From: Aquabacterium fontiphilum
GTDB lineage: Bacteria > Pseudomonadota > Gammaproteobacteria > Burkholderiales > Burkholderiaceae_C
NCBI RefSeq assembly: GCF_009909205.1
Contig: NZ_JAAAPN010000005.1
Location: 210,847-274,846, forward strand
Reading direction: 5' to 3'
DNA length: 64,000 nt
Under the pieces are notes generated by a model. That model ran no database searches. It saw nothing but the letters and a program-made list of their open reading frames with translations, and was not told the DNA's origin. Each line of letters opens with the position of its first letter. Within the stretch, counting starts at the first letter, position 1. The translations under genes and the position numbers were made by a program. Below are positions 6,087 through 36,645 of this stretch, one piece after another.

Positions 6087-7133
6087 TCATTTCGGGCCAT
6101 GGCGCTGGCGCCAGTCCCGAGGCGACAGGCCCGTCCAGCGTGCGAAAGCCCGGGCGAAGTTGGCCGGGTCGGTGTAGCCCACGGCTTCGGCCACCTCGGC
6201 CACGGCGAGCGCCGGGTTGCCGAGCAGGCGCATCGCATCGCGCTGGCGAACCTGGTCGAGCAGCACCTGATATGACGTGCCCTCGGCCTGCAGGCGGCGT
6301 TTCAGCGTGCGCTCGGACACATGCAGCATCTCGGCCATGTCGCCGATGTCGGGGTAGCGCTGATCCCTGCACACCAGACGGGTCAGCACCTGGGAGCTGG
6401 TCGTGTGGTCCTGCGCCTGGCGGGCCATCTCTTGTTCGAGGCGTTCGATGGCCAGTTGCACGCTGACCGGGTCGGCGGTCGCGATGGGCTCGTCGAGCAT
6501 GCGGGCCGGAAAGCGGATCTGCACAGCCGGTTGCCCGAAACGGAAGGGCGGGATGCGGTCCCGGTAGCGGGCATAGGCCGGTGGCTCGGCGTGGGGGACG
6601 CAGATGGTGCTGAGCCAACCCTGTTTGGCCGGGTCCATGTCCATGATCTTGGCAAACAGGCTGCACAACTCGACGGCCACCAGGTCCATGATGAAGGCCC
6701 GGTGGGGGCCGAGCGGGATGGTCTCGTGCAGCGTGACGACCACCTCAGCGCCCTCGACGCTCAGGCTGCTGCGGAAGGCCGGGACGCGGGCCTGGAAGTA
6801 GCGCTCGCTGAACGCAATCGCATCGCGCAGCGTGCTGCAGCTGATCAGGCCAAAGCCCACGAAGCCGTGCTTGGTGACCTGGCTGCGCAGCCCGAGCTCG
6901 TAAGCCAGCCCGCGGTCGCCTTCCAGGCTGTTGGCGCGGCCCAGCAGCATGGCGTATTGCCAGGCCTCGATCTGCGCGCGGGTGTCTTGCAACACCGCGA
7001 GGGTGAGCTGGCTGCCAGCGAGCACGGCCTCAGCCTCGTGGCCGCGCTCCTGCATCAGGTTGAGCAGCGAGAGGCCATAGGTGGCCGGAATCTTCAGGCG
7101 CAGGTCAGGGCTGATGGATGTGCTGGCGGGCAT
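6087..7133 (-). CDS. AraC family transcriptional regulator (arabinose-binding-domain type)
   Basis: A 348-residue regulator. The N-terminal two thirds look like the Arabinose_bd sensory domain common in AraC proteins that govern lipid and alkane genes. The C-terminal AraC double helix-turn-helix covers about residues 250-345 and contains DIGDMAEMLHVSERTLKRRL and the second-helix segment VAEAVGYTDPANFARAFARW. It precedes the fatty acid desaturase on the same strand with a 91-base gap, so control of membrane lipid desaturation is a reasonable guess, not shown by sequence. Confidence 0.88.
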   Translation of the reverse strand: MPASTSISPDLRLKIPATYGLSLLNLMQERGHEAEAVLAGSQLTLAVLQDTRAQIEAWQYAMLLGRANSLEGDRGLAYELGLRSQVTKHGFVGFGLISCSTLRDAIAFSERYFQARVPAFRSSLSVEGAEVVVTLHETIPLGPHRAFIMDLVAVELCSLFAKIMDMDPAKQGWLSTICVPHAEPPAYARYRDRIPPFRFGQPAVQIRFPARMLDEPIATADPVSVQLAIERLEQEMARQAQDHTTSSQVLTRLVCRDQRYPDIGDMAEMLHVSERTLKRRLQAEGTSYQVLLDQVRQRDAMRLLGNPALAVAEVAEAVGYTDPANFARAFARWTGLSPRDWRQRHGPK

Positions 7134-7163
7134 GGGGGCCAGATTGTGGCGCAGTGTGGCGCG

Positions 7164-7904
7164 TCAGGCCAGCCATCGCGCCAGCAAGGGAGCCAGCAGC
7201 ACCAGGGCGATGCCCGAGAAAATCATCGTCAGACTGGAGACAGCGCCTTCCTGCGCGCCGATCTGCCAGGCCTTGGCCGTGCCCACGCCATGGGTGGCGG
7301 CGCCAAAGGCTGAGCCCACTGCCACACTGTGGCGCACCTTGAGCCACATCAGCCAGCCTTGCCCCACCAGCATGCCGAACACGCCGGTGACCAGCACGCA
7401 CATCACCGCCAGCTCGGGCTCCACACCCAGCGTGGTGGCCACGGGCATCGCGAAGGGCGACGACACGGAGCGCGGCAGGATGCTGCGCATCACCTCGTCG
7501 GGCAGCCCCAGCAGCCAGGCGAGTGCCCACGAACTCGACACGCCCAGCACCACGCCGGTCATCACGCCGATGGCCAGCGTCAGCGGGTAGCGCCGGATCA
7601 GCCCGCGCTGCTGGAAGATCGGGAAGGCGAAGGCCACCGTGGCCGGCCCCAGCATCCACGTCAGCCAGCGGGTGTGCAGCGCGTAGACCTCATAGGGGGT
7701 GGCCGTGATCAGCAAGGCGGCGATCAGGACCGTGGGTGTCAGGATGATGGGCGACAGCCACAGGCTGGACACGCGCTGGTGCAGGCGGCGCGAACCATAG
7801 AACAGCAGCAAGGTCAGCACCAGCCAGCCGGCGCCCTGAGCCTGCACCCACGGCGAGGCGAGGTCGATGCCGAGCTGGGCGCTGCTGGAGGTGAGCGCGC
7901 TCAT
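7164..7904 (-). CDS. lrgB: LrgB family membrane protein
   Basis: A 246-residue hydrophobic protein of the LrgB/CidB (YohK) family with multiple predicted membrane helices. The conserved segments SVSSPFAMPVA and AFGAATHGVGTAKA are typical. LrgA/LrgB pairs are linked to control of murein hydrolase activity and, in other bacteria, to organic acid export. The ATG at 7904 overlaps the lrgA stop by 4 bases (ATGA), which decides the start over the much longer open frame. It is the last gene of tetR-lrgA-lrgB. Confidence 0.9.
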   Translation of the reverse strand: MSALTSSSAQLGIDLASPWVQAQGAGWLVLTLLLFYGSRRLHQRVSSLWLSPIILTPTVLIAALLITATPYEVYALHTRWLTWMLGPATVAFAFPIFQQRGLIRRYPLTLAIGVMTGVVLGVSSSWALAWLLGLPDEVMRSILPRSVSSPFAMPVATTLGVEPELAVMCVLVTGVFGMLVGQGWLMWLKVRHSVAVGSAFGAATHGVGTAKAWQIGAQEGAVSSLTMIFSGIALVLLAPLLARWLA

Positions 7905-13372: not shown

Positions 13373-13449
<77 letters not shown>

Positions 13450-25090: not shown

Positions 25091-25422
25091 GGCGTTCCGA
25101 AGTTCAATAAATGTGACAAATTGCACGAAGCGCGGGCCCCAGATCATGACGGGCTCATTTCGCACGTGCTTCGTTGTCGCTAGGGCGAAGTTCACGGCGA
25201 TGCGGGTTATCCCGTGCGCCAGATTCGGGAAATCATCCCATTCGCTGACGCGAGCCCAGTAACGATTTGGGTCCATGCATCCGGTCCACCCCGGTTGCCT
25301 TCTCAGCTTCTTGTGTCTAGGCTGCCTTTCGGCAGGTGAAAGCCTGCTCGGATGGAGGGAGCCGCGGCTGCCTTTTGTCCAGAACAAACAAAGGGCCGCA
25401 TTCCAAAAGTGGAGAAAGACAC
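25091..25422. other. Intergenic region tyrS - first PEP-CTERM gene
   Basis: These 332 bases carry no gene I can name. On the minus strand, 25276 down to about 25091 reads as protein-like sequence beginning MDPNRYWARVSEWDDF and continuing with ordinary codon use, but with no ribosome site; it may be a remnant. A hairpin CTGCC-TTTC-GGCAG lies at 25322-25335. The last 60 bases contain the leader block shared with the next two PEP-CTERM genes. Confidence 0.5.
25364..25399 (+). promoter_or_regulatory. Shared upstream block, PEP-CTERM gene 1
   Basis: GCGGCTGCC (25364-25372) and AAAGGGCCGC (25390-25399) lie 17 bases apart, 24 bases before the start codon. The same pair occurs ahead of the next two paralogues. 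It may be a promoter with its transcribed leader or a regulator site; it does not match the sigma-54 pattern reported for some PEP-CTERM genes. Confidence 0.5.
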
Positions 25423-26175
25423 ATGAAATTTGCACTCAAGACTCTGGTGGCCGCAGCCGCCTTCGCAGCTGCTGGCGTGGCTTCTGCTGCCACCGTGGCA
25501 CCCGGCGGTAGCCTGGGCGGCGGCCTGATCTTCGAATCGGGCTCCGGCAAGCTCGAGTTCAGCGGCGCCCTGCTGGAAGCCCTGGACGTGGGTCAGATCG
25601 AGATCACCGAAATCCCGACGCTGATCAGCTCCGAGATCAACATCCACCCCGATGGTTACTACACCGGCGTGAGCGCCACCGCGGGCATCAATGCTCTGAC
25701 CGTGGACGGCGACCTGAACGTGCTGTCGGCTGCCACGAGCGGCGGTCTGCTGCAGACCGCTCCGGTGCTGCGCAGCGTGTCGCGCGGCGGCTTCCTGGGC
25801 GTGAGCAACCTGAACGTTGATCTGACCACCAAGCGCGTTTATGCCGACATCAGCGGCGGCAACGGCGTGGGCAATCTGACCAACTTCTACCTGTGGGACA
25901 TCGCGGACATCACTGGCCCGACCCAGGTCACTGGCCCCGGCACCTTTGTGACCACGCTGTCCGGCCTGTCGATCACGCAGGAAGGCTTCAACGTGTTCTC
26001 GCAATCGCTGGGTCTGCTGACCCTGGGCGTTGGCGCGCTGCAAACCGTGGACAACTTCGGCACGATCACCTCGACGATCACCGTGGCTGTGCCCGAGCCC
26101 TCGACCTACGCCCTGATGGGCATCGGTCTGGTGACGGTCGGTCTGGTGGCCCGTCGCCGCGCCAAGGCTCAGTGA
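25423..26175 (+). CDS. PEP-CTERM sorting domain protein, paralogue 1
   Basis: A 250-residue secreted protein of unknown function. Residues 1-22 are a Sec signal peptide (cleaved near ASAA). The body is cysteine-free, rich in Gly, Thr and Val, and shares with its three neighbours the segments LLEALDVGQI, GGNGVGNLTNF and LSGLSITQEGFNVF. The C-terminus has the exosortase signal PEPSTYALMG followed by a hydrophobic helix and RRRAK. No exosortase gene is in the window. The ATG follows GGAG. It is the most divergent of the first three copies, and ends before a strong terminator. Confidence 0.88.
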   Translation: MKFALKTLVAAAAFAAAGVASAATVAPGGSLGGGLIFESGSGKLEFSGALLEALDVGQIEITEIPTLISSEINIHPDGYYTGVSATAGINALTVDGDLNVLSAATSGGLLQTAPVLRSVSRGGFLGVSNLNVDLTTKRVYADISGGNGVGNLTNFYLWDIADITGPTQVTGPGTFVTTLSGLSITQEGFNVFSQSLGLLTLGVGALQTVDNFGTITSTITVAVPEPSTYALMGIGLVTVGLVARRRAKAQ

Positions 26176-26231
26176 GCCTGAGCTGACCTGAAGGCGTTCG
26201 GGCTCGTCCACTCGGCCTGACGCCCATTTTG

Positions 26232-26267
26232 AGCCCGGTGCTCGCGAAAGCGGGCGTCGGGCTTTTT
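26232..26267 (+). terminator. Terminator after PEP-CTERM gene 1
   Basis: Stem AGCCCG (26232-26237) / CGGGCT (26258-26263) with an inner CTCGC-GAAA-GCGGG hairpin, followed by a run of five T including the last stem base. It ends the transcript of the first paralogue. Confidence 0.8.
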
Positions 26268-26501
26268 GCTGTCAGCTCGGGGGATTCCTCCCCCCCGGGT
26301 AAGGGGGGGGTGGGTTCGCTTCAAGGGAACTCTCGCGCCTTTTGCAACCGTTATGCGGGATAACGCGGGTTGTGAGGGCGTTGAGCGGCGCTAAATTCAT
26401 TCAACAGAGTCCGGAAAGGCCTCTGAACGCGCGCAAGGAACCCGCGGATGCCTTGAGCCGACAAGCAAGATAAAAGGGCCGCAATTGAGTGGAGAAACGA
26501 C
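26268..26501. other. Intergenic region with G/C runs before PEP-CTERM gene 2
   Basis: No gene is seen. Seven C (26290-26296) and eight G (26303-26310) flank GGGTAA and could form a C7/G7 hairpin; such runs are prone to slippage. A 5-bp inverted repeat GTTAT-GCGGG-ATAAC lies at 26350-26364. The 3' end carries the leader block of gene 2. Confidence 0.5.
26444..26482 (+). promoter_or_regulatory. Shared upstream block, PEP-CTERM gene 2
   Basis: GCGGATGCC (26444-26452) and AAAAGGGCCGC (26472-26482), 19 bases apart and 19 bases before the start codon, preceded by AAGAT that could serve as part of a -10. It corresponds to the blocks ahead of paralogues 1 and 3. Confidence 0.5.
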
Positions 26502-27263
26502 ATGAAGTTTGCATTGAAGAGCGTGGTCGCTGCCGCTGCCTTCGTGATGGCTGGTGCTGCCTCGGCCGCGGCAGTTACCGTCACCCCCAGCGACACTTAC
26601 AAGGGCCTGACGGCCACTGGTACGGGCGAGCTGAAGTTCAGTGATGCGTTGCTGGAAGCGCTGGACGTGGGGCAGATCGCCATCACCCCCTACGGCTCGC
26701 TGGCTGGCGCCGTCATCGACAACTCGCTGGGCTACTACACAGATGTTCGCGCCAAGGCCAACATCACTTCCCTGACCATTGACGACGCCACGGACGAGGT
26801 GCTGCGTGCCTCTACCACCGGCGGCCTGACCCAGACCGCTGAGTTCCTGCGTTCGGTGACCACCGGCGGTTCGCTGACCGTGACCGATCTGAACGTCGAC
26901 CTGGTCGGCAAGAAGGTGTTTGCCACCATCATCGGCGGCAACGGCGTGGGTACGCTGACCAACTTCCACCTGTGGAACATCGGCAACATCGCTGGCCCCA
27001 CCACCGTGGCTGGTGCTGGCACCTATGTCACGACGCTGAGCCAGCTGTCCATCACTCAGGCCGGTTTCGACACCTTCGTGCAGTCTCTGGGCCTGCTGAG
27101 CCTGGGTCGCGGCGCGCTGCAGACCGTCACAGACTTCGGCGTGATCACCTCGACCATCACGGCCACCGCCGTGACGCCGGCCATCCCCGAGCCTTCCACC
27201 TACGCCCTGATGGGCCTGGGTCTGGTCGGCATCGCGCTGGCTGCCCGCCGTCGCGCCAAGTGA
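26502..27263 (+). CDS. PEP-CTERM sorting domain protein, paralogue 2
   Basis: A 253-residue secreted protein closely related to paralogue 3. The signal peptide covers residues 1-23. The cysteine-free body contains DALLEALDVGQIAITPYG, TGGLTQTAEFLRSVTTGGSL, GGNGVGTLTNFHLWNIGN and LSITQAGFDTFVQSLGLLSL. The C-terminus is PEPSTYALMGLGL plus a hydrophobic segment and RRRAK. Copies 2 and 3 remain almost identical over the central region at DNA level, which points to recent duplication or gene conversion. GGAG precedes the ATG. Function unknown; surface or biofilm-matrix roles are usual guesses for PEP-CTERM proteins. Confidence 0.88.
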   Translation: MKFALKSVVAAAAFVMAGAASAAAVTVTPSDTYKGLTATGTGELKFSDALLEALDVGQIAITPYGSLAGAVIDNSLGYYTDVRAKANITSLTIDDATDEVLRASTTGGLTQTAEFLRSVTTGGSLTVTDLNVDLVGKKVFATIIGGNGVGTLTNFHLWNIGNIAGPTTVAGAGTYVTTLSQLSITQAGFDTFVQSLGLLSLGRGALQTVTDFGVITSTITATAVTPAIPEPSTYALMGLGLVGIALAARRRAK

Positions 27264-27294
27264 ACGCGGGCCGGCTGCACGCCGGCCGCGTCGG

Positions 27295-27325
27295 AAAACC
27301 CGCTGCCTCGCAGCGGGTTTTTTTT
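27295..27325 (+). terminator. Terminator after PEP-CTERM gene 2
   Basis: A perfect 10-bp stem AACCCGCTGC / GCAGCGGGTT with loop CTC and eight T after the stem start. A textbook intrinsic terminator. Confidence 0.93.
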
Positions 27326-27594
27326 CGGGCGCATCACCCATCGGGCGGGAATAAATCGCGTGCTTGAGGGGTTAGCCCGCCCCGCGATCGCGGGGGGTGA
27401 GCGTGGGGGAGTCGGCAAATCGCGGCCCCCGTCACGTTTTGCCGCGCTTGTCCCGTTGTGACACACCGCGATCCCGTCTTATCCTTCAGTTAACAGATGC
27501 CGATATGGGCTCTGACCCGGCACACGGAGACAAGCGGATGCCACCGTGCCGGGGCAGTGGGTAGTAAAAGGGCCGCTTAGAAGTGGAAGTAAAC
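27326..27594. other. Intergenic region before PEP-CTERM gene 3
   Basis: No gene is seen. A perfect 16-bp palindrome CCCCGCGATCGCGGGG lies at 27380-27395, within a longer GC-rich run. The 3' end holds the leader block of gene 3. The rest shows nothing I can name. Confidence 0.5.
27534..27576 (+). promoter_or_regulatory. Shared upstream block, PEP-CTERM gene 3
   Basis: GCGGATGCC (27534-27542) and AAAAGGGCCGC (27566-27576), 23 bases apart and 18 bases before the start codon. TAGT directly precedes the A-run. The spacing between the two elements differs from copies 1 and 2 (17 and 19), while the second element keeps its place relative to the ATG. Confidence 0.5.
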
Positions 27595-28359
27595 ATGAAA
27601 TTCGCGATCAAGAGCATTGTTGCCGCCACCGCCTTCGTTGCTGCTGGCTTGGCCTCTGCAGCCCCCGTCGTGGTGGCCGCCCAAACGGGTGTCTTCAATG
27701 GTCTGAGCATGGAAGGCACCGGCACGCTGAAGTTCAGCGACGCCCTGCTTGAGGCCCTGGACGTCGGTCAGATCGTCATCAACCCCTACGGCGGTCTGGT
27801 GTCTTCGGTTGTCGACAATAGCCTGGGCTACTACACCAACGTGCAGGCCACGGCCCGCATCAACAGCCTGACCGTGGAGTCGACGAACGGCAACGTGCTG
27901 AGCGCAGCCACCACCGGCGGCCTGACCCAGACCGCCACCTTCCTGCGTTCGGTGACCAACGGCGGTTCGCTGACTGTGACCGACCTGAACGTTGATCTGG
28001 CCAACAAGAAGGTGTTTGCCACCATCATCGGCGGCAACGGCGTGGGCACGCTGACCAACTTCCACCTGTGGAACATCGCCAGCATCACCGGCGCCACCTC
28101 GGTGACCGGCGCTGGTACCTTCACGACCGACATCTCGGGTCTGTCGATCACGTCGACCGGTTTCGATGTGTTCGTGCAATCGCTGGGCCTGCTGTCGCTG
28201 GGCCGCGGTGCACTGGCCACCGTGGAAGACTTCGGCACCATCAAGTCGACCATCGTGGCAACGGCTGTGACGCCTGCCATCCCCGAGCCGTCGACGTACG
28301 CCCTGATGGGTCTGGGCCTGGTTGGCATCGCCCTGGCTGCCCGTCGTCGCGCCAAGTAA
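27595..28359 (+). CDS. PEP-CTERM sorting domain protein, paralogue 3
   Basis: A 254-residue secreted protein with a signal peptide (1-21, ending ASA), a cysteine-free body and the C-terminal PEPSTYALMGLGL sorting signal with RRRAK. It is nearest to paralogue 2: TGGLTQTATFLRSVTNGGSL, KKVFATIIGGNGVGTLTNF and LSITSTGFDVFVQSLGLLSL are shared almost residue for residue. The ATG at 27595 is preferred; an in-frame GTG at 27583 lies within the ribosome site region. A terminator with nine T follows. Confidence 0.88.
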   Translation: MKFAIKSIVAATAFVAAGLASAAPVVVAAQTGVFNGLSMEGTGTLKFSDALLEALDVGQIVINPYGGLVSSVVDNSLGYYTNVQATARINSLTVESTNGNVLSAATTGGLTQTATFLRSVTNGGSLTVTDLNVDLANKKVFATIIGGNGVGTLTNFHLWNIASITGATSVTGAGTFTTDISGLSITSTGFDVFVQSLGLLSLGRGALATVEDFGTIKSTIVATAVTPAIPEPSTYALMGLGLVGIALAARRRAK

Positions 28360-28403
28360 GTCCTGAATCTGGCCGGCCCTGGGTCGGCTGGATCTGGCAA
28401 AAG

Positions 28404-28429
28404 CCGCTGCTCCGCAGCGGTTTTTTTTT
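28404..28429 (+). terminator. Terminator after PEP-CTERM gene 3
   Basis: A 7-bp stem CCGCTGC / GCAGCGG with loop TCC and nine T. Stem and loop resemble the terminator after gene 2, as expected if the unit was duplicated with its terminator. Confidence 0.93.
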
Positions 28430-28639
28430 GTCGTGCGGTGGGTGTACGCGATGGGATATTTGCCGTCATATCGGGGCAACCCGTCCCGTGTTTGCGGGGG
28501 CGTCAGCCTGAGGTGCCTTCTGGATGGGATGCTTGCGACACTGCGGCGCGGGCTGACGGGTTCGGCAGCGGGTGTGATCGTCCTATGCTGAAGGCCTCGC
28601 TCCGACGAGACCCACATTGCCAATAAATTGCAGGACACC

Positions 28640-29407
28640 ATGACACTCGCGATCAAGAATCTTGTTGCCGCTGCCGCCTTCGTGGCCGCCGGAATGGCAT
28701 CGGCCGCTCCCGTCACTGTGGTGACAGGCTCTGACAACTACAACGGGTACCCCATTTCCGGCACCGGGACGCTGGCTTTCAGCGCGGCGCTGTTGGAGGC
28801 GCTGGACGTGGGCCAGATCGTCATCTCGCCCTACGGTGACCTGGTGTCGTCTGTGGTGGACAACGATCAAGGCTACTATGAGGCGGTCTCTGCGACCGCC
28901 CGCGTCACCAGTCTGTCGATCGACTCAGCCACCGGTACGGTGCTGAGCGCTGCCACGACAGGGGGTCTCCAGCAGATCGCGCCGTTTCAGCGCTCCGTGT
29001 CGACTGGCGGCTCGCTGATCGTGACCGATCTCAATGTGGATCTGGGCGCCCAAAGGGTGTTCGCCACGGTCATCGGTGGCAACGGTGTGGGTACCTTGAC
29101 CAACTTCCATCTGTGGAACATCGACAGCATCACCGGCGCCACCGCCGTGACGGGGCCGGGTGAGTACACCACCTACCTCTCGGGCTTGTCGATCACAGAA
29201 GCGGGCTTCAACACCTTTGTACAGTCGCTGGGCCTGCTGAGCCTCGGGCGCGGCGCGCTGGCCACCGTGGAGGACTTTGGCACCATCACGTCGACCATTC
29301 TCGTCGCCGGTCCCCTGACGCCGCCCATCCCGGAGCCCTCAACGTATGCGCTGATGGGCGTGGGGCTGTTGGGCATCGCACTCGCTGTGCGTCGTCGTCC
29401 GAAGTGA
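28640..29407 (+). CDS. PEP-CTERM sorting domain protein, paralogue 4
   Basis: A 255-residue member of the same family: signal peptide 1-22 (ending ASA), body with LLEALDVGQIVISPYG, GGNGVGTLTNFHLWNI, LSGLSITEAGFNTFVQSL and C-terminal PEPSTYALMGVGL with RRRPK. It differs from the other three in starting MTLAIKN rather than MKFA.K, and the GCGG.TGCC/AAAGGGCCGC block is absent upstream, so its expression is probably separate. AGGA precedes the ATG. Codon choice also differs in places (more rare synonymous codons than in copies 2 and 3), suggesting an older split. Confidence 0.87.
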   Translation: MTLAIKNLVAAAAFVAAGMASAAPVTVVTGSDNYNGYPISGTGTLAFSAALLEALDVGQIVISPYGDLVSSVVDNDQGYYEAVSATARVTSLSIDSATGTVLSAATTGGLQQIAPFQRSVSTGGSLIVTDLNVDLGAQRVFATVIGGNGVGTLTNFHLWNIDSITGATAVTGPGEYTTYLSGLSITEAGFNTFVQSLGLLSLGRGALATVEDFGTITSTILVAGPLTPPIPEPSTYALMGVGLLGIALAVRRRPK

Positions 29408-29446: not shown

Positions 29447-29476
29447 GCGGTTGCCGCAAGGCAGCCGCGTTCTTTT
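29447..29476 (+). terminator. Terminator after PEP-CTERM gene 4
   Basis: A 9-bp stem GCGGTTGCC / GGCAGCCGC (one G-T pair) with loop GCAA, followed by GTTCTTTTTG. It separates the PEP-CTERM array from the outer-membrane genes. Confidence 0.85.
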
Positions 29477-29614: not shown

Positions 29615-30838
29615 ATGACCTTACCGGCCCGGATGCGAGCAGGACTCGCAACGGTACTGGCAGCTTCGGCTGCTTCCTGGGTGGCCCCTGCGGTAGCGCA
29701 GACCTCGCCCATTGACACGATCTTTTCGCAGGTCACCCCGTCGCTGCGCGACCGCATGTTCATGCGGTTGAACTACATCCATGTGAATGTAAAGACGTCT
29801 TCGGGCGAAACCTATGACGTCACCGGGCCGGTGGTGCAGCGCGGCGATCTGGCGACCTATTTGGGGGCCGGCACGCCTTTTCTTGCCTTCAACGGCAACC
29901 TTTCCCTCTACAACTCCAGTGCGAACTTTCTCAGAAAGTATGGCGACGCCAATCTGAGCGCGCCGCCCACTGCAGCCACACCCAATGCCAACGGACTGCT
30001 GGAGGAAGCCATCGACCAGCAGCTCGAGGCAACGCCTGGTTGTGTGCGTTTGAGCGAGGGGCTCGGGACGCCGTGCGGCATCTACGCGCGCAGCGACAGC
30101 ACGGTGGGCACGCCGGCCATCAGCGTGGGCTACTTCCTCGACGAGGCGCGAAATTGGAGCATTGAGGCCTTCTTGCTGGCCGCGCCGCTCAAAGTGGACG
30201 TCATGGGTGACGGCAACAATGCCCTCAATGGCGTGAACATCATCAAGACCAAGCTTCTTCCGCCAACGGCTTCCATCTCACGCCACTTCGGTGCGCGTGA
30301 TGCCGCCTTGCGCCCGCATGTGGGTTTGATGGCTTCTTACGCGGTGTTTTTCGACACCAAGGCCACCCAAGGGCTGGCCGACTATGTGGGTGGCGACACG
30401 CGCATCTCGATCAAGAACGCCTTCGGGTGGGGCCCGACGGCGGGCTTCAAGTACCAGCTCAATGACGACTGGCACGTGAACCTGGGCGTGGGCAAGATCC
30501 GCTATCGAACCGAGGCCACCCTGGTGACGCCCGTGACTGTGATCCGCAGCGAAACCGCGGTGCTCAACGACTACGGGTCTTACATCACCAACGCGATTGG
30601 CGCGACCCAGGTCCTGTTCCGGCCGGGTTCGAGCAACGGTGGCAACCATGTGGCCGGGCCGAATGACCCTGCGGGTTATGCGCCGGGCGAGGCCGTCCCG
30701 GCGATCACCGGTCTGATGTGCGATCTGGCGTCAGCCAAGGCTGGACGCGCCACCTGCGACCACGGCAGCTTCACCCGCAAGCAGTCCACCAAGCTGGACA
30801 ACACGCTCTTTGTCTTCAGTGTTGGCCGCTCATTCTGA
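29615..30838 (+). CDS. OmpW-like outer membrane beta-barrel protein with large insertion
   Basis: A 407-residue outer-membrane protein. The signal peptide ends at about residue 29 (AVAQ). OmpW-like features are the glycine/aromatic strands, SVGYFLDEARNWSIEAFLLAAPLK, FGWGPTAGFKYQLNDDWHVNLGVG and the C-terminal phenylalanine (VFSVGRSF). OmpW proteins are usually near 210-230 residues, so this one carries long extra loops, including a cysteine pair region CVRLSEGLGTPC and another CDLASAKAGRATC. GAGGAG precedes the ATG. It is followed by a second barrel gene after 10 bases. Confidence 0.75.
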   Translation: MTLPARMRAGLATVLAASAASWVAPAVAQTSPIDTIFSQVTPSLRDRMFMRLNYIHVNVKTSSGETYDVTGPVVQRGDLATYLGAGTPFLAFNGNLSLYNSSANFLRKYGDANLSAPPTAATPNANGLLEEAIDQQLEATPGCVRLSEGLGTPCGIYARSDSTVGTPAISVGYFLDEARNWSIEAFLLAAPLKVDVMGDGNNALNGVNIIKTKLLPPTASISRHFGARDAALRPHVGLMASYAVFFDTKATQGLADYVGGDTRISIKNAFGWGPTAGFKYQLNDDWHVNLGVGKIRYRTEATLVTPVTVIRSETAVLNDYGSYITNAIGATQVLFRPGSSNGGNHVAGPNDPAGYAPGEAVPAITGLMCDLASAKAGRATCDHGSFTRKQSTKLDNTLFVFSVGRSF

Positions 30839-30848
30839 TAGGTTTTTC

Positions 30849-31478
30849 ATGCGCAAAACTCTCATTCAACTGGGCGCGGCGTTCGCCCTTGGTTCGGTCT
30901 TTGTGAGCCCCGCTGCGGCCCAGGGCTACGCAGGGGCCGTGTTGTCGCTCTCCAAGGTGTCGGATGGCTGCCCGCTGCCGGAGAAATGCGATGACTCGGG
31001 CCGGGGCGGCAAGCTCTACTTCGGCACCCGCATGGCCGAGCCGCTCCTCCGCTTGGGCGCCTTCAAGGTGGCAGCCATGGAGGTGGGGCTGTTGCGGTCC
31101 AGCAAGGCCCGTTCTCAGGGGGTGGAGCTGGTGGATATCGTCGACGAGGGCGAGCTGCCGTTCGCCGTGCGCAACACCATCAAGGCCGATGCGCTGACGT
31201 TCGCGCTGGTCGGTTCATTGCCGGTGGCGGATCGGCTGGCACTCGACGTCAAGGCGGGCGCAGCCTATGTGTCGTCGACCATCCGATACGAATTTGACGG
31301 ACGCTCTGACGGGTCGCGCACCCGGAACCGGCTGAGCCCCTATGCGGGTCTGGCGCTGCAGTATGGCGTGCTCTCGAACGTGCGCGTGGGCGCAGCGGTG
31401 GACGTGTTCCGCTTCAACGTCGCAGGCGAAAGCGGTGTCGTGTCCCAGCTGGGCTTCGGCGCAGAAGTCGACTTCTAA
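30849..31478 (+). CDS. Outer membrane beta-barrel protein
   Basis: A 209-residue protein with a signal peptide (1-25, ending AAAQ) and alternating hydrophobic strands ending LGFGAEVDF, so probably an eight-stranded barrel of the OmpA/OMP_b-brl type. An early CPLPEKCDDSG segment may form a disulfide loop. It lies 10 bases after the OmpW-like gene and is probably cotranscribed. Its stop overlaps that of the minus-strand gene by 4 bases. The function is unknown. Confidence 0.75.
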   Translation: MRKTLIQLGAAFALGSVFVSPAAAQGYAGAVLSLSKVSDGCPLPEKCDDSGRGGKLYFGTRMAEPLLRLGAFKVAAMEVGLLRSSKARSQGVELVDIVDEGELPFAVRNTIKADALTFALVGSLPVADRLALDVKAGAAYVSSTIRYEFDGRSDGSRTRNRLSPYAGLALQYGVLSNVRVGAAVDVFRFNVAGESGVVSQLGFGAEVDF

Positions 31479-36508: not shown

Positions 36509-36513
36509 CCGCC

Positions 36514-36645
36514 CGTCACGCGACTGGCGATACCGGGGCGTGCGGTCGGTCTGACCGCGGCGGCCCGCAGGTGGTGAACCACCGGGGAGCGTGACCGGCC
36601 CTGAGCACTGTTGGGCCGTTCCGCCGTGCGCCTGGGCAGCCCTCA
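36514..36645 (+). promoter_or_regulatory. ZMP/ZTP riboswitch (pfl motif)
   Basis: The conserved parts of the pfl RNA are all present in order: CGACTGGCGATA (36521-36532), a variable stem CGGTCGGTCTGACCG, GTGGTGAACCACCGGGGAGC (36571-36590), and the 3' half CCGCCGTGCGCCTGGGCA (36621-36638). This aptamer senses ZMP/ZTP, which accumulates when 10-formyl-tetrahydrofolate is short, and is known upstream of one-carbon genes such as glyA. The 70 bases after it must hold the switch that controls glyA expression; no strong terminator with a U-tract is visible there, so control of translation is possible. Confidence 0.92.

Follow-up and report, generated by a model that had tools for sequence, protein, structure and literature searches.

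Within a window of 64,000 nt from Aquabacterium fontiphilum (contig NZ_JAAAPN010000005.1; the window is the whole stretch of DNA that was analysed), positions 25423–29407 were found to carry four tandem paralogous genes of 250–255 codons each, all on the + strand, whose products are PEP-CTERM proteins. An initial annotation of this DNA had described such an array of four paralogs, which was confirmed here: the remaining copies share 75, 74 and 65% identity with copy 3, which as query retrieves them at E 5e-111, 1e-107 and 1e-80, so the cluster is not due to chance. The four proteins indeed lack cysteine, the body motifs quoted in that annotation are present and mostly invariant in the alignment, and a Sec signal was recognised by eye. 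Copies 1–3, in contrast to copy 4, are preceded by a conserved structured RNA leader, which the initial annotation had overlooked. We regard it as probable that this is a locus for matrix proteins of HtaA fold, displayed through an exosortase and translationally controlled by a new pseudoknot leader. The genes are as follows.

25423–26175, + strand: copy 1, PEP-CTERM protein of 250 aa (open reading frame (ORF) call, PEP-CTERM tail, alignment)
26502–27263, + strand: copy 2, PEP-CTERM protein of 253 aa (ORF call, PEP-CTERM tail, alignment)
27595–28359, + strand: copy 3, PEP-CTERM protein of 254 aa, its mature part folded by AlphaFold2 and predicted to be HtaA-like
28640–29407, + strand: copy 4, PEP-CTERM protein of 255 aa, without the RNA leader

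All four proteins end in PEPSTYALMG followed by a hydrophobic stretch and RRR, as seen in the alignment, and this PEP-CTERM tail, correctly named initially as an exosortase sorting signal, exceeds the Pfam cut-off in each of them (29.9–32.1 bits versus 20.7 for PF07589), as it does the cut-off of TIGR02595. The host genome (3.65 Mb) contains 39 PF07589 places, all above the cut-off, compared with 0 in 14 control genomes. When the same genome was searched for exosortases (PF09721), three were found, each scoring above the cut-off for XrtB and below that for XrtA.

Own genome, contig C18 (10,574 bases), 831–1595: XrtB-type exosortase (PF09721, XrtB cut-off)
Own genome, contig C18 (10,574 bases), 6599–7366: XrtB-type exosortase (PF09721, XrtB cut-off)
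Own genome, C6:34356–35123: XrtB-type exosortase (PF09721, XrtB cut-off)

The small contig C18 carries its two exosortases beside two PEP-CTERM matches (C18:4204 and C18:5144). Each array protein would be exported by Sec, processed by an XrtB-type exosortase at its PEP-CTERM tail and displayed at the cell surface or in the extracellular matrix; this route follows from the tail and from general knowledge of the system, and the surface or matrix role proposed at the outset gains support from the three exosortases and the 39 PEP-CTERM matches. According to the accessible part of PMC9850573, PepA of Aquincola tertiaricarbonis RN12 is a PEP-CTERM/exosortase protein whose overproduction binds exopolysaccharide to cells and whose gene, pepA, is RpoN-dependent. 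As far as that part describes it, the array proteins resemble PepA and the family model NF033554 (floc_PepA) in having a signal-like N-terminus, a PEP-CTERM tail, a betaproteobacterial exosortase host and a likely matrix role; however, they reach only 27–31 bits against NF033554, for which the cut-off is 80. RpoN control as for pepA was rejected, since a GG/GC consensus scan of 330 bases upstream (at most four mismatches, with GG and GC held fixed; consensus taken in part from the available portion of PMC9850573) detected no −24/−12 site before copies 1–3. For copy 4, a single match was found at 28323, inside the coding region of copy 3.

The initial annotation recognised no function for the body domain. 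At the level of sequence this stands, as comparison of the body with Pfam, NCBIfam and PDB returned neither a match to a characterised family nor a solved relative, whereas structure prediction yielded a recognisable, HtaA-like fold. The AlphaFold2 model of mature copy 3 (16 sequences in the alignment) has a mean predicted local distance difference test (pLDDT) score of 86.7, and its best PDB match by Foldseek was the HtaA CR domain 6jsc_A (E 1.4e-4, probability 1.00, template modelling (TM) scores 0.45/0.58), with the HtaA CR domain 8smu_C at E 6.9e-4 and the next row from another protein at E 0.048. A second model, of a paralog without an anchor and sharing most alignment rows with the first, has a pLDDT of 68.9; Foldseek ranks 1–7 for this model were all HtaA, the best at E 9.9e-5, probability 1.00 and TM 0.53/0.61. 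The fold model retrieved nothing from a viral structure library at E ≤ 0.001. The profile PF04213 (HtaA) found no match in the 16 alignment members and in 0/42 genomes of the genus.

With such a fold in two models, a conserved barrel gene next door, and an F or Y ahead of the final strand (Y in 43/146 aligned rows), the proteins might be haem-binding hemophores, i.e. a Gram-negative counterpart of HtaA/ChtA with an OmpW-like barrel for uptake. We consider this highly improbable. The axial tyrosine, the haem ligand of HtaA, sits in helix α-1 according to the accessible text of PMC12494546; with positional correspondence to that partial source set by the order of elements, no counterpart was found in helix 1 (mature residues 27–35), where across the 146 rows (copy 3 listed twice) each position shows at most one Tyr and never a His. 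Nor does the 6–7 strand loop have a position with more than one His in these rows, and PF04213 is absent from the genus as stated above. Haem binding was rejected on the missing axial tyrosine and the lack of a PF04213 match. The body is thus predicted to have the HtaA (CR) fold, although neither profile nor ligand makes it a member of HtaA: it resembles the CR domain (PF04213; Corynebacterium HtaA, ChtA) in predicted fold and best Foldseek matches, and differs in profile, axial tyrosine, Gram-negative host and exosortase-type tail. The displayed protein would be a β-sandwich of HtaA fold without the haem-ligand tyrosine.

Across genomes, a profile of the four whole copies (tail included) matched 42/42 genomes of the genus, the own genome included, and 75/149 relatives overall. 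Since its matches outside the genus (best E 4.9e-8) were absent from a body-only search of 299 genomes of the taxonomic family, they were taken for PEP-CTERM tails. The body-only profile found 35/42 Aquabacterium genomes (28/31 good ones) and 4 of the 299, all four in the genus, with 0/295 outside it. Among the seven genus genomes that it missed, G004, G006, G016 and G039 have the leader, and G009, G023 and G032 (75–88% complete) have neither.

An iterated profile over 81 stretches (the window and 80 relatives) yielded 171 family ORFs, 118 of which lie in 45 same-strand clusters. With a body-only model of PEP-type members, 160 of the 171 reach E 1e-5; the other 11, four of which fail entirely (two in the own genome, L073 and L074), are probably unrelated bodies drawn in by signal and tail. 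A weak body-only match in the own genome (C14:53577–53987, E 3.2e-5), outside the list of PEP-CTERM matches, is possibly a distant anchor-less paralog. The frame looks broken in L088:5174–5947 (= L020:10406–11179), with its N-terminal part out of frame, and the gene at L137:3024–4078 is split over two frames; these copies may be decayed array members or assembly errors.

Text rules assigned 138 of the 171 ORFs a PEP-CTERM end, 26 a short end of the type ..PYVAK/PYVPAP without the tail, and seven another end, at least two short-ended ORFs (L085_12394 and L075_10000) being misfiled as PEP by the rule. In four of the seven, a CBM_2 domain (PF00553) above the cut-off replaces the tail (eight proteins scanned overall, four positive).

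L077:2912–4039: HtaA-like body with CBM2 (CBM_2 above cut-off)
L077:4040–5107: HtaA-like body with CBM2, with leader (CBM_2 above cut-off)
L083:2551–3618: HtaA-like body with CBM2, with leader (CBM_2 above cut-off)
L103:2383–3357: HtaA-like body with CBM2 (CBM_2 above cut-off)
L087:2350–3411: look-alike of the CBM2 type, with leader (by appearance, outside the domain scan)

The anchor-less group is homologous: every one of the 24 members whose start was called reaches E ≤ 9.1e-5 against the PEP-type body model, 22 of them 1.7e-8, compared with E 1.9 for the best non-family ORF, and the profile–profile probability is 97.7%. The body therefore occurs with three kinds of end, namely PEP-CTERM, a CBM2 cellulose-binding domain, or none, and because CBM2 or anchor-less ends take the place of PEP-CTERM, the sandwich is taken as a polysaccharide-matrix module. 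The CBM2 alternates suggest a matrix role, and so does the analogy to Aquincola PepA as portrayed in the available part of PMC9850573. If this is correct, an HtaA sandwich lacking the haem ligand, in a Gram-negative host and with three alternative ends, would mark this fold as a general display module and not as a hemophore only.

The initial annotation had further proposed that the array is driven by dosage or variation. A surface family generating variants by recombination between copies would be consistent with the similarity of copies 2 and 3, whose DNA is 89% identical over 191 middle columns compared with 74% overall (70–76% for the other five pairs); 'nearly identical', as that stretch had been called, is an overstatement, and the value fits gene conversion. 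The window copies also form one clade on the protein tree (FastTree, long branches flagged; local Shimodaira–Hasegawa-like support 98), indicative of a lineage-specific expansion, and same-strand clusters of 2–6 ORFs occur in many genomes. Conversely, the non-synonymous rate lies below the synonymous rate in six of six copy pairs (ratio about 0.2–0.55), so there is no sign of diversifying selection, and a variant-generating family is unlikely. The array exemplifies a family that extends across the genus and includes lineage-specific tandem copies.

The leader of copies 1–3 is about 80 nt long and ends at the start codon. It was read from the upstream sequences of 163 family genes, among those listed, and its order is P1a, GGA, P2a, GCC/P1b, a spacer with conserved AAA, P2b, usually 4–12 nt, GTGGAG and ATG. 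P2a, located in the loop of the P1 hairpin, pairs with P2b just upstream of the Shine–Dalgarno sequence, forming an H-type pseudoknot.

25340–25422, + strand: leader RNA of copy 1 (E 3.7e-9 in the own genome), P2 formed by 25364–25369 (GCGGCT) with 25394–25399 (GGCCGC), Shine–Dalgarno at 25409–25414
26420–26501, + strand: leader RNA of copy 2 (E 3.0e-12), P2 formed by 26444–26449 with 26477–26482, Shine–Dalgarno at 26489–26494
27510–27594, + strand: leader RNA of copy 3 (E 2.4e-7), P2 formed by 27534–27539 with 27571–27576, Shine–Dalgarno at 27583–27588

P2b mostly ends 17–23 nt upstream of the start codon, and in L116 the distance is 29 nt. P2 takes forms that include GCGGAC/GTCCGC, GCGAAC/GTTCGC, TCGATC/GATCGA, GCGATC/GATCGT, CGGTC/GACCG, GCGGG/CCCGC and GCAGGT/GCCTGC, and in the leaders of L077:4040–5107, L083 and L087 it is different yet still complementary. 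No Rfam model matched at the leaders, up to E 5 in the window region and up to E 1 at eight other loci, nor did any leader match arise from the whole window at the Rfam gathering cut-off; 'Burkholderiales-1' (Weinberg 2010), which has no Rfam number (PMC2864571), falls outside this comparison. As a genome-wide motif the 10-mer AAAGGGCCGC was rejected, since its 16 sites compare with 14 for the reversed pattern and the short block by itself means nothing.

In the own genome, the three leader hits at E ≤ 1 all precede window copies 1–3, and for copy 4 no leader was detected even when the filters were disabled, the best score being 4.5 bits. A role as general regulator of the PEP-CTERM genes of this genome was rejected, given three hits versus 39 PEP-CTERM matches. 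Within the genus, the leader was detected in 37/42 genomes (30/31 good ones), with 57 hits. Directly behind 49 of the 52 placed hits lies a family start; judging from the coordinates, the exceptions L130, L088 and L116 are two genes for which the start had been set too far upstream and one gene that a contig end truncates. Of nine further places read (one being L116 again), seven have a family-like start no more than 2 nt behind the leader; a contig end interrupts three of these genes, at 18, 26 and 73 residues. Altogether 56 of the 57 genus hits precede a family gene, the exception being G004:C23 (E 2.9e-4). Outside the genus, 295 genomes of the family gave one weak hit (G256, E 1.5e-4) with no start codon behind it, and 300 genomes of the order gave four hits at E 0.006–0.01, about chance level; these searches covered about 300 genomes each, drawn from larger groups, and the stricter filters applied in them miss weak RNA matches. 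At least 21 state changes are needed to place the leader on the protein tree, where it is present in many deep branches, indicating that it is probably old and often lost.

Pairing was examined in 43 leaders, where P1 is 75.0% paired, P2 89.5% and both helices together 81.2%, whereas sliding the partners by 1–3 columns leaves at most 50.1% for both helices and 41.2% for P2 alone. Changes on both sides of a pair were observed at 6/8 P1 and 4/6 P2 pairs, and the covariation score was reached by 0/500 shuffles. As these seed leaders had been picked by hand-written patterns, partly by P2 form, a covariance model was built from P1 only; its 61 hits in 90 sources show P2 88.0% paired (slides ≤40.6%), with double changes at 4/6 P2 pairs. 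In a simulation along a tree of 53 distinct leaders, from which L193 (a chance hit) and one fragment of 49 bases were excluded, six of the top nine among 3,081 column pairs belong to the 14 predicted, with simulated E of 0.05, 0.05, 0.13, 1.25, 3.2 and 3.3; the simulation made 6.4 changes per column versus 8.1 in the data and is therefore somewhat lenient. Were the element conserved as DNA instead, as a promoter-proximal operator in which the RNA helices are incidental, the sequence conservation of the GGA and GCC blocks and of the part upstream of P1 would be accounted for, and the covariation of single pairs is just borderline. That the element ends at the Shine–Dalgarno sequence and start codon, that both helices show two-sided pair changes and that sliding the partners destroys pairing make an operator very unlikely.

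The placement of the leader against the Shine–Dalgarno sequence makes translational control the most economical reading. Copies 1–3 would be translated under the control of the leader, with folding or unfolding of the pseudoknot setting ribosome access, whichever the direction and trigger of this control may be. Several observations weigh against a pseudoknot-controlled, HtaA-fold locus. The number of pair types is weak, being reached by 102, 176 and 258 of 500 shuffles, and the double-change pairs were matched by 16, 20 and 16 of 500. Choosing seeds by P2 inflates the P2 count of the 43 leaders, for which the P1-only count is the fairer one. Column pair 30/76 of P2 is unpaired in 28/54 rows (20 A–G, 6 A–A, 2 other). 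Once phylogeny was simulated, single pairs were never strongly significant (best E 0.05), eight of the 14 predicted pairs have a simulated E > 30, partly because these pairs hardly vary, and the unpredicted pairs 15–114 and 38–114 have scores similar to that of the third predicted pair. Furthermore, the leader is missing from copy 4 and from 38/79 family loci, few of its unpaired positions are invariant by inspection, and the HtaA match comes from the predicted fold only, the sequence profiles seeing nothing and both models having most alignment rows in common.

Some of these features would suit a leader that is no regulator and acts constitutively, as a stabiliser or translation enhancer: a pseudoknot at the 5′ end would prolong the life of the mRNA for an abundant structural protein or hold the Shine–Dalgarno sequence open. 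Few unpaired bases appear conserved on inspection, the position beside the Shine–Dalgarno sequence is fixed, the element is tied to a single gene family, and a conserved A-rich stretch stands just before P2b; such a stretch before the second P2-type strand is usual in ordinary H-type pseudoknots. This explanation deserves serious consideration, albeit as the less favoured one: the leader persists (E 5e-14 to 1e-8) in front of six genes with a strongly diverged body (body-only E 4.5e-7 to 7.5e-6), and many other copies lack it, a pattern more in keeping with selective use than with a general requirement.

A more specific version of translational control appears rather unlikely, namely that the leader represents a novel riboswitch class with a pseudoknot, which might respond to a biofilm second messenger such as cyclic di-GMP (c-di-GMP) and switch the translation of exosortase-anchored matrix proteins directly at the Shine–Dalgarno sequence. 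In the portion of PMC12530212 available, c-di-GMP riboswitches adjoin PEP-CTERM genes in Methylophaga nitratireducenticrescens GP59, so that both cases have a structured RNA beside several clustered PEP-CTERM genes; compared with those riboswitches, as that portion presents them, the present leader is an H-type pseudoknot of about 80 nt with no Rfam match, and the Rfam covariance models of c-di-GMP riboswitches found nothing at the leaders. A hairpin loop pairing with a strand beside the Shine–Dalgarno sequence is likewise shared with the H-type pseudoknot translational riboswitches, such as those for S-adenosylmethionine/S-adenosylhomocysteine and prequeuosine-1, going by the partial sources at hand. 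In contrast to these, again by partial sources, the leader does not match their Rfam models and was found in one genus and one gene family. The scarcity of invariant unpaired positions counts against a classic small-molecule aptamer.

The literature search (exosortase with pseudoknot; PEP-CTERM with 'untranslated region') yielded nothing, and in the databases and literature searched there was no trace of the protein family, of its HtaA fold or, most notably, of the leader; PEP-CTERM proteins in numbers and structured leaders are each already known kinds. The timing of PEP-CTERM display in Gram-negatives is little known, the case seen in detail being transcriptional (RpoN; PMC9850573, available part). 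If translational control by the leader holds, a small RNA pseudoknot that is absent from Rfam, sits at the ribosome-binding site and goes with a single protein family would represent a second route for timing this display.

The array represents this species' version of a locus conserved in Aquabacterium, with the order tyrS, one to five PEP-CTERM genes, an OmpW-like barrel, a small barrel and/or two anchor-less paralogs, and pdxH. The outer-membrane barrel noted next door at the outset was borne out as a PF03922 (OmpW) match and a conserved neighbour. In many genomes, a pair of anchor-less secreted paralogs lies downstream of this barrel, where the window has the small OmpA-like barrel.

29615–30838, + strand: OmpW-like outer-membrane barrel (PF03922), conserved neighbour of the array
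30846–31478, + strand: small OmpA-like barrel
L134:7689–9493, L136:7700–9579, L140:1259–3107 and L141:1015–2866: examples of anchor-less paralog pairs

The OmpW-like barrel was found in 29/41 loci with the leader versus 0/38 family loci without it, and 32/41 carry one or more of five markers, namely the barrel, the small barrel, tyrS, pdxH and msrA. The nine leader loci without markers include the CBM2-type L077, L083 and L087 and the short contig L146. None of the 38 leaderless loci has the barrel or tyrS, although these loci often have only about 2.5 kb of flank and therefore less room in which to see them.

Each gene had also been credited with its own terminator. Scanning for hairpins with T-runs reported sites after copies 1, 3 and 4, and the hairpin after copy 2 was recognised by eye only. 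As the scan total of five sites is near that of shuffled sequence (mean 4.1, sd 2.1), the sole argument for these terminators is their position soon after each stop codon.

26231–26264, + strand: terminator-like hairpin after copy 1 (hairpin and T-run scan)
About 27296–27325, + strand: terminator-like hairpin after copy 2 (by eye only; not reported by the scan)
28399–28425, + strand: terminator-like hairpin after copy 3 (hairpin and T-run scan)
29447–29468, + strand: terminator-like hairpin after copy 4 (hairpin and T-run scan)

Elsewhere in the window, a tRNA gene was identified at 13376–13449 on the − strand (Rfam RF00005, 67.3 bits), and a ZMP/ZTP riboswitch at 36510–36644 on the + strand (45.6 bits; Rfam gathering cut-off 39).

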